Shown one piece after another: positions 10,370-38,275 of a DNA stretch of 64,000 bases. The notes under the pieces are model-generated. The model was not told the DNA's origin, made no database searches, and saw nothing but the letters and a program-made list of their open reading frames with translations. Source of the stretch: Anaerolineales bacterium. GTDB taxonomy: Bacteria; Chloroflexota; Anaerolineae; Anaerolineales; Villigracilaceae. The number at the start of each line of letters is the position of its first letter. Within the stretch, counting starts at the first letter, position 1. The stretch spans positions 124,001 through 188,000 of the forward strand of contig JACZJC010000064.1 of NCBI GenBank assembly GCA_014860745.1, written 5' to 3'. The translations under genes and the position numbers were made by a program.

Positions 10370-11002
10370 ATGGCATCCAGAATTCGACTTGTACGACCGA
10401 AAACAAAATTATTTTCAATCACGCTGCTATTTGTCCTTGCCTACGCACTGACCCTGCCGGCACGAGCCTTTGCAATGGAGGCTTTAAGCCTGCCTTCATT
10501 TATTGAAAGTGTTCAGGATGGCGACCCCAATGCCTTGCGCGGTGTTTATGTGGAAGGCCGGATCGCGTTCCCAATCGTTCAGCAGCCGCATGAAAATCCC
10601 GGGTATGTATCCAGTGAAGATTCAGTCGTCACGCAGTTCAGCATGGCATCTGAAGTGGGAAACCTCGGTCTGCTGGCGCACAACCATCTGGCAGGCGCCA
10701 CATTTTCACAGTTACAACCCGGCGACACCATCATCCTTATTTATGGCGATGGCCGCACTCAGGGCTTTGTGGTGGAAAATCTCCTTCAATATAAAGCGAC
10801 CGATCCCCTCAGTCCCTACAGCTACTTCAAAGACCTTGCCACGGAAGAAACGCTCAGCGCCCTCGACCTCTTCAACAAAGTTTATCGCGGCGACTATCAC
10901 CTCACCCTGCAAACCTGCATCGAAAACGAAGGCAATCTCAGCTGGGGCAGGCTCTTCATTATCGCCAGACCGATCAGCAACAAGAACGCAAACAACCTCT
11001 GA
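10370..11002 (+). CDS. Secreted sortase-like cysteine transpeptidase under c-di-GMP control
   Basis: 210 aa. The N-terminus has an Arg/Lys-rich start and a hydrophobic segment (about 14-36) ending near ARAFA, so it is secreted or membrane-tethered. The body resembles a sortase beta-barrel: LLAHNHLAG supplies the catalytic His104, FSQLQPGDTIIL matches the strand after it, HLTLQTC gives the TLxTC box with Cys183, and WGRLFIIARP supplies Arg194. Sortases cleave an LPXTG-like signal and join the protein to the envelope. The ATG follows AAGGAA. Two c-di-GMP-I riboswitches in the leader tie it to the motile/sessile switch. No LPXTG substrate gene is next to it; the nearest candidate is the giant surface protein at 32 kb. 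The catalytic triad is read by eye, and the family assignment is fairly sure. Confidence 0.78.
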   Translation: MASRIRLVRPKTKLFSITLLFVLAYALTLPARAFAMEALSLPSFIESVQDGDPNALRGVYVEGRIAFPIVQQPHENPGYVSSEDSVVTQFSMASEVGNLGLLAHNHLAGATFSQLQPGDTIILIYGDGRTQGFVVENLLQYKATDPLSPYSYFKDLATEETLSALDLFNKVYRGDYHLTLQTCIENEGNLSWGRLFIIARPISNKNANNL

Positions 11003-31055: not shown

Positions 31056-31741
31056 ATGAAGAAAACAATTGTCATCACCGGCGCAACGGGTGTGCTTGGA
31101 AGCCTTGCTGCAAAAACATTTGCAGAGCGCGGCGACAACCTTGTCCTGCTCGACCGCAACCAAGCAAGATTGGATTCCCTGTCTGCGGAATTGAACCTGC
31201 CCTCAAACAGACTCCACACCCAGGTCATTGACCTGCTCGATGCGCAGGCGCTTCAGGACTCCGCCGAAGCGGTTCATTCCAAATTTGGCAGTGTTCACGG
31301 CTTGATCCATCTCATCGGCGGGTGGGTGGGCGGCAAAACGATCCCCGAATCGTCCAAAGAAGATTTTGATTTCATGCTCAACCAGCACGTGTGGACAACG
31401 TTTAATCTCTTCCGATCCTATGCGCCGCATATCGCGCCAGCGGCTGGGGACGGGTCATCCTTGTCTCACAACCTGTCACAGTAACGCCAGCGGCGAAGTC
31501 TGCGATTTATGCTGCTGCCAAGTCGGCTCAGGAAAGCCTGGCATTGACCCTGGCGGAAGAGTTCAAAGACAGCGGGTTGACCGCGAACATCATCCACGTG
31601 AAGTCAATCGATATCAAAGGCGACGGCAAAGGTACATCTCCAGCGGAGATCGTCTCTGCCATGTCGTACTTATTTTCGGAAGAGGCAAATAAGGTCAATG
31701 GGATGAGGATTCCGTTGTACAAGAAGGGCAACTGGCAGTAA
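31056..31741 (+). pseudogene. Frameshifted short-chain dehydrogenase gene
   Basis: The first frame reads VITGATGVLGSLAAKTFAERG (TGxxGxLG cofactor motif), then LIHLIGGW and FNLFRSYAPHI, and stops at 31484. The continuation is in another frame: GWGRVILVSQPVT, PAAKSAIYAAAKSAQESLALTLAEEF (YxxxK catalytic pair), ending at KKGNWQ and 31741. The switch lies near 31430-31445 and fits one lost base. Joined, the product would be about 228 aa, the usual SDR length. It may be a real pseudogene, a sequencing error, or, less likely, programmed frameshifting; no slippery heptamer was seen. Confidence 0.82.
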
Positions 31742-32341: not shown

Positions 32342-35300
32342 ATGAAAACTCAATGGACTTCCCGTATTTTTTCAGCATTTCTGATCGCAACACTGGCTGT
32401 GGTGGCGTTGCCGGTTACGCCAGCCTATGCAGCAACCATTGTAGTAAATACTGCCACAGATGAAGATACATCTGTTGGTACTCTTTGCTCTTTGCGCGAG
32501 GCTATCATTGCCGCGAATAACGATGCATCCTACAATGACTGCATTGCCGGCACAGGCAGCGATACCATTACGTTTAATATCTCCAGTGCCTCTCCCACTA
32601 TTACATTCCTTTCAGTGCCGCCTTCAGTCCAGGACGGGGACGGGCTGACGATCGACGGCACAAACCTGAATGCCGCCGGCGGCGAAGTAACTGTGAGCGG
32701 AAACAACGCAGTGCGAATCTTCAATATTACAACTGGCGCAACAACCATTCGAGATATTACACTTTTGAATGGAGTCGTGAATGGAAACGGCGGTGCAATT
32801 TTAAATAATGGCGGCACAAGCTTGACCATCAACAATGTTAAATTTACGACCAATCGAACAGTAACAGGCGGCGGAAACGACGGCGGAGCGATTTACCATA
32901 CCTCAGGTACCTTAAGTATTTCGAACAGCACATTTACCAGTAACTATACCCAGGATAACGGCGGTGCGGTTTATATCGCAAATGGCACTTGTACGATCAG
33001 TGGAAGCACGTTTAATACGCAGAACAACGGTGCCATTGACGACGGCGCGGCAATTTACCTAAATAACGGCACGTTGACAATCAACAGCACAACCTTTACC
33101 AGCAACGCCACTTCGAATGGAGACGGCGGTGCTATCTTCCAAAATGGTGGCACATTAACCATCGGCAATACAGCGGCCGTTACATTTACAGGAAATACTG
33201 CCTCTGGCGATGGCGGGGCGATCTATGTGGCTGGTGGTACGCTTACGGTGAACAATACCTCATTCACAAATTCAACGGCCGCAAATAGCGCAGATAGTGG
33301 CGGGGCGATCTACCACAATAGCAACACTTTGTTGCAGGTTACAAATTCGACTTTTACCGGCAATACTTCAACCAATGGAGACGGCGGCGCAATCATGCTG
33401 GACGCCAACAACTCGAGCGCCACCATTAGTGGAAGCACCTTTACTTCGAATTCTGCAGAGGACGATGGTGGCGCGATCTATATTGATGGCGAACCCTTTA
33501 TGGTATCCGCGAGTACCTTCTCTCTCAATAGGGCTGGAACAGGCGCGGGCGGTGGAGCAGATGGTGGGGCGATCCGTATTTCTACTAATTCAACTAGCGC
33601 AACTTCCAGGATTTCATTAAGCACCTTTACAAATAATTCGATCACCATGGCGGCCAATAATGATCTAACTGGTGGTGCAATTTCCAATAGTGGAACGATC
33701 ATAATCGCAAATGTGACCTTCTCCGGAAATTCCCTCACAAAATCAACCGGTGGCGGCGGGGATGCTTATGGCGGTGCGATCTACGCGGCTGGTACGACCA
33801 CTGTTAATAATGTAACGATGTCCGAGAACACAGTATCCGAAAGCGGCACGGGAACAGGGAGCGGCGGTTCCATCTACAGCGCTGCAGGGGCAATGACAAT
33901 CGCCAACAGCATCGTCGCCAACGGAACCGAGAACGGCGCGGCTGGCAATTGCGGCGGAACCATTACCGTTGGTGTAAGTAATATAGATTTCAATGGCGGA
34001 GATTGCGGATTTGCCATCACCACCAACCCAAACCTTGGGTCGTTGACCGGCTCCCCGCAATATTTCCCGCTCAATAGCGGCAGTTCGGCGATTGACACTG
34101 GTAGTAATGCGATTTGCGCCACTGCGACGACGACCAATAATCAATCTCAAAATGGTTTGACACGCCCGTTGGACGGAAACGGTGACACAACTCTCACTTG
34201 TGATATAGGATCATATGAAGCCCCGACACTGACTGCAACTTCATTGACTGTTACTCCCGCTTCGGGAACCTATGCAGGAACGGCAGTCCTTACAGCCACC
34301 CTTTCTCCTGCGGTCAGTGGAAAAACGATCAACTTTACACTTAATGGTGTCAGCGCCGGCTCTGCGGTGACAAATGGCAGCGGCATAGCATCCATACCCG
34401 CGGCAAGCCTTGCTGGCATAAATGCGGGCACATATCCTGGCGGAGTTGGCAGTGTTGGCAGTGGTGTAGGAGCCAGCTTTGCGGGTGATTCGGGTTATGG
34501 AGCCAGCAGCGGAACTGCAATGTTAACCGTCAATCAGGCAGCTTCGACAGTGACAGTGACCTGTACTGTCGGCGCTCCCTACACTTATACCGGCTTGGCC
34601 CAGACGCCCTGCACGGCGGAAGCGACCGGCGTGGGCATGACCCCAGTGGATGTGACCGCATCCCTGATCTATTCGAACAATACGAACGCTGGTGCAGCAA
34701 CAGCGAATGCAAGCTGGGCTGGTGATACAAACCATACTGGCAATACCGGGTCGGGCGGCTTCACAATTGGACAGGCGCCCTCAGCAGTAACGGTGACTTG
34801 TACCGTTGGCGGGCCCTACACTTATACCGGCTTGGCCCAGACACCCTGCACGGCGGAGGCAACCGGCGTGGGCATGACCCCAGTGGATGTGACCGCATCC
34901 CTGATCTATTCGAACAATACGAACGCTGGTGCAGCAACAGCGAATGCAAGCTGGGCTGGCGATACAAACCATACCGGCAATACCGGGTCGGGCGGCTTCA
35001 CAATTGGACAGGCAGCTTCGACAGTGACGGTGACTTGTACCGTTGGCGCGCCCTACACTTATACCGGCTTGACCCAGACACCCTGCACGGCGGAAGCGAC
35101 CGGCGTAGGCATGACCCCAGTGGATGTGACCGCATCCCTAATCTATTCGAATAACACCAATGCGGGTGCGGCCACGGCGGATGCAAGCTGGGCTGGCGAT
35201 AGCAACCATACAGGCAATAGCGGCTCAGGCGGCTTCACGATTGGACAGACGACTTCGACAGTGACAGTCACCTGTCCGCTGGCTTTGCAACCGTTCACCG

Positions 35301-38275
35301 GCTCAGCTCAGATCCCCTGCACGGCTCAAGCGACCGGCGTGGGCATGACCCCAGTGGATGTGACTGCATCCCTGATCTATTCGAATAATGTCAACGCAGG
35401 TGCGGCCACGGCGAATGCAAGTTGGACTGGTGATACCAACCACAGCGGCAACACCGGATCTGGTGGCTTCACGATTGGACAGGCGACTTCCACAGTGACA
35501 GTAACCTGTCCGCTGGCTTTGCAACCGTTCACCGGCTCGGCGCTGACCCTTTGTACAGCAGAAGCGACCGGTGTGGGCATGACCCCAGTGGATGTGACCG
35601 CATCCCTGATCTACTCGAACAACACCAATGCGGGTGCAGCAACAGCGAATGCAAGTTGGGCAGGCGATATAAACCACAGCGGCAATAGCGGCTCGGGCGG
35701 CTTTACGATTGGCCAGGTAACTTCCACAGTGACAGTGACCTGTACTGCCAGCGCACCACCTTACACTTATACCGGCTCAGCCCAGACCCCTTGTACGGCA
35801 GAGGCAACCGGCGTAGGAATGACACCAGTGGATGTGACTGCCTCGCTGGTTTACTCGAATAACACCAACGCGGGCGCAGCAACAGCGAATGCAAGCTGGG
35901 CTGGCGATACAAACCATACTGGCAATACCGGTTCGGGCGGATTCACAATTGGACAGGCGACTTCGACAGTGACAGTAACCTGTCCGCTGGCTGTGCAACC
36001 GTTCACCGGCTCAGCTCAAACCCCCTGCACGGCTCAAGCAACCGGCGTAGGCATGACACCGGTGGATGTGACTGCTTCACTCGTTTATTCGAATAACACC
36101 AATGCGGGTGCGGCCACGGCGAATGCAAGCTGGGCTGGCGATACAAACCATACCGGCAATACCGGCTCAAGCGGTTTCACGATTGGCCAAGTAACCTCCA
36201 CAGTGACGGTGACCTGTCCGCTGGCCGTGCAACCTTTCACCGGCTCGGCACAGACCCCCTGCACGGCAGAGGCAACCGGCGTGGGCATGACCCCAGTGGA
36301 TCTGACCGCCTCACTAGTCTATTCGAACAACATCAATCTGGGTGCTGCTACAGCAGATGTAAGCTGGGCTGGTGATACAAACCATACCGGCAATACCGGC
36401 TCAGGCGGCTTCACGATTGGACAGGCAACTTCCACAGTGACAGTCACCTGTCCGGTAAGTGTGCCTTACACCGGCTCACCTCTCACCCCTTGTACCGCGC
36501 AAGCGACAGGCGCGGGAATGACACCCGTGGATGTGACCGCATCCCTGATCTACTCGAATAACACCAATGCAGGCGCGGCTACAGCAGATGCAAGTTGGGC
36601 GGGTGATACAAACCACACCGGCAATACCGGTTCAGGCGGCTTCACGATTGCCGCCGCCGGCCAGACCATCACAGTTGTGACGAGCGCGCCTCCCACCGCA
36701 TCGAACAACTCCACTTTTGATGTGGAAGCGACTGCCTCTTCCGGCTTGCCTGTTACCATCACCACTTCAGGTGTCTGTACTGGCGGCGATACGGATGGCA
36801 CTGCGACTATTACCATGACCAGTGGAACCGGCACATGCAGTGTCTTTTACGATCAGGCTGGTGATGCGAATTACGCCGCTGCTCCGCAGGTTCAGGAAGA
36901 TGTGACTGCCACGGAAGGCCCATCCTTTACCACCGCGGATAACACGACCTTTGATTTCGGCTTCGCCGGTACCTTTACGGTAACGGCCATCGGCAACCCG
37001 TCCGCCATGACGATCACCCTGGGAGGCACGATCCCGGCAGGCGTCTCCCTAACCAATACCGGCACTGGTACCGAAACACTCAGCAGCACAGCCGCAACAC
37101 CGGTCGGCGTATATAACCTAATCCTGACCGCTAATAACGGAGTGGCTCCCAACGCCGTTCAAAACTTTACCCTCACCGTCAGAAATGGACCGATCATCGG
37201 TGCGAACGGAGTAAATTCGAACCCCGATACCGGTGATGGAACGGTCAGCGAGAATGAATCCATCATCGATACGCTTGGCATTACCCAGCTCACCGTTGAG
37301 TTCAGCCAGGATGTGAATGATCCGGCTGGCGATACCGATCCGGATGATGTAACCAACCCGGCGAACTATAAACTTGTGCGCAGTCCGGACGGCATATATG
37401 CAACCGTCAGTTGCGCAAGAGGCGTGGTCTCCCCAGACATTTCCATCTCGGTCGACTCCGTGACCTATGATAATGGCGGCGGCTCTGGTCCTTTCATTGC
37501 CACCCTGTCGATCAACGGCGGCTTCCCGCTCAATGTGGTCGGTTTCTACCGCCTGTATGTTTGCGGAACCACATCCATTGTAGACACCATAAATACAGCC
37601 CTGATATTGGCCGGCGATGGGCTCACTCCCGGAACAGACTTCCAGCGTAACTTCCGCATTTCCACCGTGGTAACAACTGGCGGCGGCGGAGGCGGCGGCG
37701 GACGAGGCGGAAATACGGCAACCTCGCAGACTCAGGTCACCAGCGGATTCCTCATCCCAGTGACCGGCTTCGCCCCGCATCAGACCACGACCCTGCCTGC
37801 CCAGCCTGCGGACAAAGCTTACAAGCCGATGGGTGAGATGACCATCGAGATTCCCACGCTTGGAATTAATTTCCCGATTGTCGGCGCATCGATCACCAAT
37901 AAGACCTGGGATCTCACCTGGCTTCAAAACAGCGTGGCCTATCTCGAAGGCTCCGCCTACCCGACCCTGGCCGGCAACACGGTGCTCACCGCGCATGTAC
38001 TGGATGCCGCCAACAACATTGGCCCGTTCTCGGATATCAAGGGCATGCAGGTCGGGCAGATGGTCTACATTCATGCCAACGGACAGACCTACGTGTATCA
38101 GGTGCAGGAGAGCCAGAAGATCCTGCCCACCAGCATCGCAAAGATCTTCAAGCATGAGGAAGACTCCTGGGTGACGCTCGTGACCTGCGAGGATTACAAC
38201 GCGAAGACCGGCCTGTACACCACGCGACGCATGGTGCGCGCGGTATTGATCAGTGTGATCCCTGATAAAAAGTAA
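32342..38275 (+). CDS. Giant repeat surface protein with internal IPVTG motif and C-terminal sortase domain
   Basis: 1977 aa. Signal peptide (1-30, cut near AYAA), CSLREAIIAAN motif as in choice-of-anchor Q/Pmp-like proteins, then a right-handed beta-helix region (about 80-620) with recurring GGAIY turns. One Ig-like domain (Big_3 type) leads into nine 77-79-residue repeats (about 732-1436), each with TVTC, TGVGMTPVDVTASL, YSNN and GGFTIGQ. Next come an Ig/He_PIG-like domain, a Big_5-like domain (LTVEFSQDVND), and a Gly-rich hinge. IPVTG lies at 1805-1809. The C-terminal about 150 residues are a sortase: EIPTLGINFPIVG, VLTAHVLD (His1885), WVTLVTCEDYN (Cys1949), TTRRMVRAVL (Arg1962/1963). There is no C-terminal membrane helix. 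It is probably an adhesin or matrix protein that attaches itself or others. Confidence 0.9.
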   Translation: MKTQWTSRIFSAFLIATLAVVALPVTPAYAATIVVNTATDEDTSVGTLCSLREAIIAANNDASYNDCIAGTGSDTITFNISSASPTITFLSVPPSVQDGDGLTIDGTNLNAAGGEVTVSGNNAVRIFNITTGATTIRDITLLNGVVNGNGGAILNNGGTSLTINNVKFTTNRTVTGGGNDGGAIYHTSGTLSISNSTFTSNYTQDNGGAVYIANGTCTISGSTFNTQNNGAIDDGAAIYLNNGTLTINSTTFTSNATSNGDGGAIFQNGGTLTIGNTAAVTFTGNTASGDGGAIYVAGGTLTVNNTSFTNSTAANSADSGGAIYHNSNTLLQVTNSTFTGNTSTNGDGGAIMLDANNSSATISGSTFTSNSAEDDGGAIYIDGEPFMVSASTFSLNRAGTGAGGGADGGAIRISTNSTSATSRISLSTFTNNSITMAANNDLTGGAISNSGTIIIANVTFSGNSLTKSTGGGGDAYGGAIYAAGTTTVNNVTMSENTVSESGTGTGSGGSIYSAAGAMTIANSIVANGTENGAAGNCGGTITVGVSNIDFNGGDCGFAITTNPNLGSLTGSPQYFPLNSGSSAIDTGSNAICATATTTNNQSQNGLTRPLDGNGDTTLTCDIGSYEAPTLTATSLTVTPASGTYAGTAVLTATLSPAVSGKTINFTLNGVSAGSAVTNGSGIASIPAASLAGINAGTYPGGVGSVGSGVGASFAGDSGYGASSGTAMLTVNQAASTVTVTCTVGAPYTYTGLAQTPCTAEATGVGMTPVDVTASLIYSNNTNAGAATANASWAGDTNHTGNTGSGGFTIGQAPSAVTVTCTVGGPYTYTGLAQTPCTAEATGVGMTPVDVTASLIYSNNTNAGAATANASWAGDTNHTGNTGSGGFTIGQAASTVTVTCTVGAPYTYTGLTQTPCTAEATGVGMTPVDVTASLIYSNNTNAGAATADASWAGDSNHTGNSGSGGFTIGQTTSTVTVTCPLALQPFTGSAQIPCTAQATGVGMTPVDVTASLIYSNNVNAGAATANASWTGDTNHSGNTGSGGFTIGQATSTVTVTCPLALQPFTGSALTLCTAEATGVGMTPVDVTASLIYSNNTNAGAATANASWAGDINHSGNSGSGGFTIGQVTSTVTVTCTASAPPYTYTGSAQTPCTAEATGVGMTPVDVTASLVYSNNTNAGAATANASWAGDTNHTGNTGSGGFTIGQATSTVTVTCPLAVQPFTGSAQTPCTAQATGVGMTPVDVTASLVYSNNTNAGAATANASWAGDTNHTGNTGSSGFTIGQVTSTVTVTCPLAVQPFTGSAQTPCTAEATGVGMTPVDLTASLVYSNNINLGAATADVSWAGDTNHTGNTGSGGFTIGQATSTVTVTCPVSVPYTGSPLTPCTAQATGAGMTPVDVTASLIYSNNTNAGAATADASWAGDTNHTGNTGSGGFTIAAAGQTITVVTSAPPTASNNSTFDVEATASSGLPVTITTSGVCTGGDTDGTATITMTSGTGTCSVFYDQAGDANYAAAPQVQEDVTATEGPSFTTADNTTFDFGFAGTFTVTAIGNPSAMTITLGGTIPAGVSLTNTGTGTETLSSTAATPVGVYNLILTANNGVAPNAVQNFTLTVRNGPIIGANGVNSNPDTGDGTVSENESIIDTLGITQLTVEFSQDVNDPAGDTDPDDVTNPANYKLVRSPDGIYATVSCARGVVSPDISISVDSVTYDNGGGSGPFIATLSINGGFPLNVVGFYRLYVCGTTSIVDTINTALILAGDGLTPGTDFQRNFRISTVVTTGGGGGGGGRGGNTATSQTQVTSGFLIPVTGFAPHQTTTLPAQPADKAYKPMGEMTIEIPTLGINFPIVGASITNKTWDLTWLQNSVAYLEGSAYPTLAGNTVLTAHVLDAANNIGPFSDIKGMQVGQMVYIHANGQTYVYQVQESQKILPTSIAKIFKHEEDSWVTLVTCEDYNAKTGLYTTRRMVRAVLISVIPDKK
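34535..36650 (+). repeat. Nine tandem ~235-bp repeats inside the surface protein gene
   Basis: Each unit encodes one 77-79-residue Ig-like repeat. The core GGCATGACCCCAGTGGATGT is nearly identical in most units at DNA level, including third codon positions, while the segment after TVTC alternates between two forms (YTYTG and LALQPFTG/LAVQPFTG). This indicates recent expansion and shuffling by recombination. Confidence 0.9.

Follow-up and report, generated by a model that had tools for sequence, protein, structure and literature searches.

Sortases are, to our knowledge, separate enzymes that act on other proteins. As a rule they are transpeptidases, and a free position between a fixed proline and a Thr-Gly pair is the mark of a site that they recognise. 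Surface proteins that carry the canonical LPXTG signal (models PF00746 and TIGR01167) are secreted and have, towards the C-terminus, a flexible linker, the motif, a hydrophobic helix and a positively charged tail, in this order. In an engineered system, sortase-tag expressed protein ligation (STEPL), the protein, an LPETG or LPxTG motif and the sortase are found in one chain, reportedly in the order protein-LPETG-sortase. One source describes how the protein is cut off this chain and joined to a Gly-bearing molecule (PMC11561820). With regard to the class C (pilus) sortases, a further source reports that the DPY or DPF motif of their lid overlaps the LPAT substrate on S. aureus SrtA, and that these lids are termed pseudo-substrates (PMC3493515). 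A sorting motif has also been engineered into such a lid, in the GBS SrtC1 mutant 3rbj, where KDPYS was changed to IPNTG in a protein with a dead catalytic cysteine; the motif is reported to be disordered in the crystal (PMC3166054). A natural chain holding both an LPXTG motif and a sortase was not found in the literature searched, which included lids and engineered fusions and for the most part did not extend to subscription journals.

The window analysed here is a stretch of 64,000 nucleotides from an Anaerolineales bacterium. Its gene at 32342..38275, on the + strand like all of its parts described below, encodes a secreted surface protein of 1977 aa that ends in an LPxTG-sortase module and is translated without internal stops, with Pfam and NCBIfam matches along its length. 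The initial annotation, made from the sequence alone, had named in it an IPVTG motif at residues 1805-1809 together with His1885, Cys1949 and Arg1962/1963, all of which are present in the translation and in a residue check. The signal peptide that it had proposed corresponds to the only stretch flagged by a hydropathy scan of the protein and is placed at about residues 1-30 (32342..32431, cleavage site by eye), and the scan also agrees that there is no C-terminal membrane helix. A beta-helix had been suggested as well; CSLREA (residues 33-59), PMP repeats and choice-of-anchor Q (residues 562-627) were indeed matched at 32438..34222, and the passenger is thereby probably of the beta-helix type, the fold being deduced from these domains. 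'Choice-of-anchor' is the NCBI name for domains that co-occur with varied C-terminal anchors. The nine tandem repeats at 34535..36650 (78 aa or 234 bp each, 83% matches) were recovered too, but the label 'Ig-like' that had been given to them was not, since a Pfam scan matched no Ig-like domain there. The repeats have no Pfam match at all, and most of them contain two cysteines, which could form one disulfide per repeat.

The C-terminal module begins with a Gly/Thr/Ser-rich linker (residues 1778-1803, 37673..37750), apparent in the sequence and in the family profile. It is followed by the sorting motif L-IPVTG-F (1804-1810, 37751..37771), recognised from the sequence, the relatives and the profile, with a proposed cut between Thr1808 and Gly1809. 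A conserved linker or lid (1811-1834, 37772..37843, consensus APxxxTxLPxQPAxKAY), which is ordered in the predicted model, then leads to the Sortase domain PF04203 (1835-1969, 37844..38248), identified by Pfam and by structure comparison. The catalytic residues His1885 (37994..37996), Cys1949 (38186..38188) and Arg1962 (38225..38227) were each conserved in 80/80 sequences of the A2 alignment. IPVTG stands 26 residues ahead of the Pfam domain and 76 ahead of the histidine, so that the distance of about 75 residues once assigned to the domain is in fact that to the histidine. With 173 residues between it and the C-terminus, the motif would be missed by an LPXTG survey limited to the last 50 residues, such as one that has been published (PMC12617251).

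The protein belongs to the sortase superfamily by family and by fold, with 70.4 bits for PF04203 over residues 1835-1969 (cut-off 26.6) and 58.6 bits for TIGR01076 (cut-off 39.35), and it reaches none of the listed NCBIfam sortase class cut-offs. Class C is the best-scoring named class, at 55.5 bits for NF033745 against a cut-off of 160, and this model is also below cut-off in nine relatives scanned. The class D, E and GN models are far under cut-off in the window protein, those of classes D, E, F and GN are under cut-off wherever they are listed in the nine relatives, and there was no listed match to the class A and B models. With class C the window family shares the sortase fold, a lid stretch before strand beta-1 and the position of the lid, where the proline of DPX falls on the substrate proline. 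However, its lid reads LPxTGF and not DP(W/F/Y), and its sortase is fused to a passenger and lacks the C-terminal membrane helix that class C enzymes have (PMC3493515). Like the canonical signal, it has an LPxTG motif that is preceded by a flexible linker and located towards the C-terminus of a secreted surface protein, whereas the place of the hydrophobic helix and positive tail is taken by a sortase domain. The 3rbj mutant likewise has a sorting motif in the lid, but it is engineered, and with its dead cysteine and disordered motif it neither supports nor refutes self-sorting. STEPL has the same three elements in one chain; it differs in being engineered and in the addition of calcium, while the lid linker of the natural module is conserved. 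By analogy, the module is best read as a natural counterpart of the STEPL fusion.

Five sortase matches were found in the window's own genome. Three of them belong to giant chains, each of which carries [LI]P[AV]TGFAP at 172-178 residues from the end; the other two are a stand-alone sortase with a membrane helix and a weak, small, secreted match. In the phylum, where 400 genomes were searched, 53 matches reached 133 bits or more, every one of them in the window's class; PxTGF is present in 51 and missing from L033 and L058 (ILDTGF). A named genome collection yielded 274 relatives from Chloroflexi/Chloroflexota, Anaerolineales and kin, including Longilinea arvoryzae KOME-1. The best 80 of these 274 loci gave 84 ORFs, 79 with PxTGF, four with PxSGF and one cut by a contig end; these 80 are the top loci by similarity, with 194 left out, and the query used for both this set and that of the phylum included the motif. 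No membrane helix was detected downstream of the motif by hydropathy scan in any of the 84 related ORFs, and no relative was found in viral contigs. In nearly all close relatives P-x-[TS]-G-F is located 19-49 residues ahead of the sortase core. The sortase domain is kept without the motif in L033/L066 (G276:C75), a 203-aa sortase-domain ORF that has no passenger and retains His and Cys, while its motif region reads as a degenerate LPASA.

The passengers of the nine relatives scanned are diverse, with cadherin/Ig domains, choice-of-anchor D or Q with CSLREA, ice-binding-like domains, DUF11 or none recognised. Judged by these sequences, the module behaves as a portable anchor for widely differing passengers. 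Several genomes (L078, L122; G028:C50; G337:C1) hold two fused genes separated by about 3 to 10 kb, in the manner of tandem duplicates, and one locus (L067, in G112) holds a decayed remnant of a fused sortase gene, the next downstream ORF of which looks TIR-domain-like by eye.

An alignment of 81 sequences on the motif, the rows of which were chosen by P.[TS]GF and of which every intact row matched that pattern, gave information contents of 2.83 bits for L/I, 4.32 for P, 1.29 for x, 4.04 for T, 4.32 for G and 4.32 for F. In the 39 positions upstream of the motif (-40 to -2) the values are 1.1 bits or less, the motif threonine is replaced by serine only, and the lid stretch after the motif is likewise strongly conserved. 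At the level of sequence, this pattern of conservation is that of a sorting signal. Ile1805 also covaries with I1935 and F1936 (z 3.6 and 3.3), a signal in which kinship is uncontrolled and which was not used as evidence.

When 121 genomes of the order were searched with a query without the motif, 150 matches had an E-value of 1e-12 or lower. Of these, 137 were assessed; eight weak matches were left unread, and another five offered no readable stretch, as two were partial, two were truncated at contig ends and one was a decayed fragment. The motif was found in 121 of the 137, in 104 through a match of the motif+linker profile by coordinates (54 of these were also read) and in 17 by reading, with F, Y or L after T/S-G. 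One weak match with IPDTGY (L364, in G176) is counted among the bearers. The 16 motif-less matches comprise L336 and 15 weaker ones. Ranked by E-value, the motif is present in 120 of the 121 assessed matches down to 8.5e-19 and in one of the 16 below it, a line that was set after the result was seen. Among the motif bearers that were read, His and Cys are each kept in 64/64 and Arg in 63/64, and the motif is also kept in L368 and L369, where it stands 44-49 residues ahead of the core. In one locus (L357, G453:C29) motif and linker are tandemly doubled, LPSTGFRHGEVTQLPKQPAA, ahead of a single sortase domain. In the reverse direction, each of the 105 matches of the motif+linker profile in the 121 genomes has a sortase core no more than 220 bases downstream, and no profile match without a fused sortase domain was found there. 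At genus level, 27 of 29 strong profile matches were checked and every one precedes a sortase; the other two were without a locus. As far as can be told from sequence comparison, motif and sortase domain are one unit family-wide. The suggestion of the initial annotation that the two sort their own chain is upheld in so far as P-x-[TS]-G-F and the sortase are kept together in close homologues (83/83 intact ORFs of the named collection, 51/53 in the phylum and 121/137 in the motif-free search), whereas the cutting and attachment of the chain by its own domain we infer.

AlphaFold2 models of the window module and of the Longilinea module have mean pLDDT values of 92.7 and 91.6, respectively, and in both the segment before the first strand is predicted to be mostly ordered, with little secondary structure. 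In the window model P-V-T-G-F onward is placed in a block of mean pLDDT 92 and L-I in the end block (mean 58, first six residues under 50), and in the Longilinea model, where the motif is L7-P8-D9-T10-G11-F12, G-F onward is placed in a block of mean 88 and L-P-x-T in the end block (mean 64, first three residues under 50). Foldseek/VIA matched the window model to sortases (best Z 17.4, rmsd 3.3, 148 aligned). In VIA the alignments of most class C chains start within the first few residues, while those of class A and E chains mostly start only at residue 20-35; early aligners outside class C were B. anthracis SrtA (2kw8) and C. diphtheriae SrtA (5k9a), and S. suis SrtC1 (3re9) aligns early in the window model only, starting from residue 26 in the Longilinea model.

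With the Longilinea residue given first, the first aligned pairs are 4-46, 4-46 and 2-44 for GBS SrtC1 (DPY 49-51), 5-56 and 3-54 for S. pneumoniae SrtC1 (DPW 58-60), 4-81 for GBS SrtC2 (D84-F86) and 1-84 for GBS SrtC1 in another numbering (D90-Y92). Longilinea P8 would thus fall on the lid proline in seven chains of three class C sortases, if the alignments are ungapped, a register that presumes no gap because the VIA ranges give only the first and last aligned residues, and from which class C chains lacking a source for the lid numbering were excluded. The register is off by one for the lid mutant 3rbj in the Longilinea model, and in the window model, where the ranges begin in the disordered tail, reading without gaps in the same way gives an offset of one to three residues. 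The motif segment is accordingly modelled as ordered and in the lid position, not remote from the active site, which is in line with the initial proposal; AlphaFold2 may also have modelled the segment on class C lids met in training. On these models, the lid seems to have turned into a real substrate, and a self-sorting C-terminal module is the best reading.

The same position would be occupied by a pseudo-substrate lid that is never cleaved and blocks the sortase until another substrate arrives, the passenger merely positioning the enzyme. The term pseudo-substrate is applied to class C lids (PMC3493515), and the entire lid stretch is conserved beyond LPxTG, a conservation of the post-motif linker that is compatible with an uncleaved lid too. 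Nonetheless, class C lids hold DP(W/F/Y) and not a cleavable LPxTG (PMC3166054), and the combination of a variable x with invariant P, T/S, G and F resembles real substrates. Moreover, the other substrate was sought in the own genome, where LPXTG anchor models gave seven distinct weak places, two of them above the TIGR01167 cut-off, and none of the seven has an LPxTG-type motif ahead of the helix. An uncleaved lid is therefore considered unlikely.

Stand-alone sortases present a different picture, with a membrane helix in 21/21 and the motif in 0/21. A helix lies within about 130 residues upstream in 10 of the 16 motif-less matches versus none of the 64 motif-bearing ones that were read; in sequence terms, the motif goes with the membrane-free sortase type. 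In giant sortase fusions of another kind (L336, L343, L344, L346, L347, L350 and L351), the C-terminal sortase is preceded by a membrane helix and the motif is absent from the vicinity of the domain, and two similar large frames (L349 and L353) show IPLTG right behind a hydrophobic stretch, about 100 residues ahead of the sortase. Three frames of the own genome (L161, L164 and L166) end with a membrane helix and an Arg/Lys-rich tail without LPxTG. The window itself encodes, at 10370-11002 (+), a small secreted sortase-like protein of 210 aa without an LPxTG motif, which scores 219.6 bits for NCBIfam sortase_YLP (cut-off 125) and slightly under cut-off for PF04203. Near the giant gene, a short-chain dehydrogenase of 142 aa (31056-31484) looks truncated, as its counterparts in L074-L076 have about 226-231 aa.

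The passenger might instead be anchored by the stand-alone membrane sortase encoded on contig C64 of the own genome, with the fused domain doing another job or serving as a tail. A strong match of the stand-alone type is present in 59 of 60 family genomes, which leaves some probability to dependence on a separate sortase. Against this, G311 and G433, both 97% complete, each contain a single sortase match, which is fused and bears the motif; this argues against the need for a separate sortase, with incompleteness leaving some room. The fused domain also keeps its catalytic residues, and motif plus linker never occurs without it among the profile matches in 121 genomes. Anchoring by the stand-alone enzyme is thus regarded as improbable. 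To see whether the motif also occurs in proteins of the own genome that have no sortase, a PxTGFxxP DNA pattern was searched; it matched seven times (a control pattern 11 times). Three of these matches are the fused sortases, and the other four sit in frames of 18-60 aa and were taken as chance. Similarly, a dedicated partner gene was not supported by the 25 largest neighbour clusters, which consist of the fused proteins and of ordinary neighbours shared among close relatives; of the latter, the largest cluster covers nine of 81 loci (the 80 loci and window 22001-50000; many flanks are short).

We estimate a probability of roughly 0.6 that the last ~175 residues form a self-sorting module by which the passenger is cut and anchored by its own domain, on the combined grounds of sequence, models and the likeness to STEPL. 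The order of parts would be any secreted passenger, a flexible linker, [L/I]P-x-T-G-F, the conserved lid and a lid-type sortase without a membrane anchor. The active-site groove of the own domain would take up the motif where the class C lid sits, Cys1949 would attack Thr1808 and the Thr-Gly bond would be broken, leaving the passenger held as a thioester. An envelope amine, either of a peptidoglycan precursor or of a lysine in a neighbouring protein, would then accept the passenger, and the used sortase domain would be released with the new start Gly-Phe-Ala-Pro. Four strong PBP transpeptidase matches in the own genome make peptidoglycan a possible acceptor.

The cut might alternatively end in hydrolysis and act as a release switch that sheds the passenger to the surroundings. 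This would fit with the lack of a membrane anchor after the motif in 84/84 related ORFs, but sortases being transpeptidases as a rule, and the PBP transpeptidases making a peptidoglycan acceptor plausible, shedding is held to be distinctly improbable. Finally, a chance match in the linker is ruled out by conservation. The motif is short, and the 95,917 passenger residues examined in related frames contain its looser form [LIVM]Px[TS]G 19 times, but they do not contain the F-bearing [LIVM]Px[TS]GF even once, and the motif is near-universal at one place.

With enzyme and signal fused in each protein, each self-sorting chain would bring its own single-use transpeptidase. We give about even odds to the wider reading of a natural, single-use, self-immolating sortase, a portable module that would serve hundreds of Anaerolineales surface proteins, replace the helix-tail signal of LPXTG proteins and require no separate sortase. 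If self-sorting is true, the role of the sortase lid becomes testable, as a real substrate would stand where other sortases hold a pseudo-substrate, and the family may be a source of ready-made self-ligating tags for biotechnology. Enzyme and signal as an inseparable unit would represent a new logic for protein anchoring, and it would account for the display of giant proteins by these Chloroflexota in the absence of the usual LPXTG tails.
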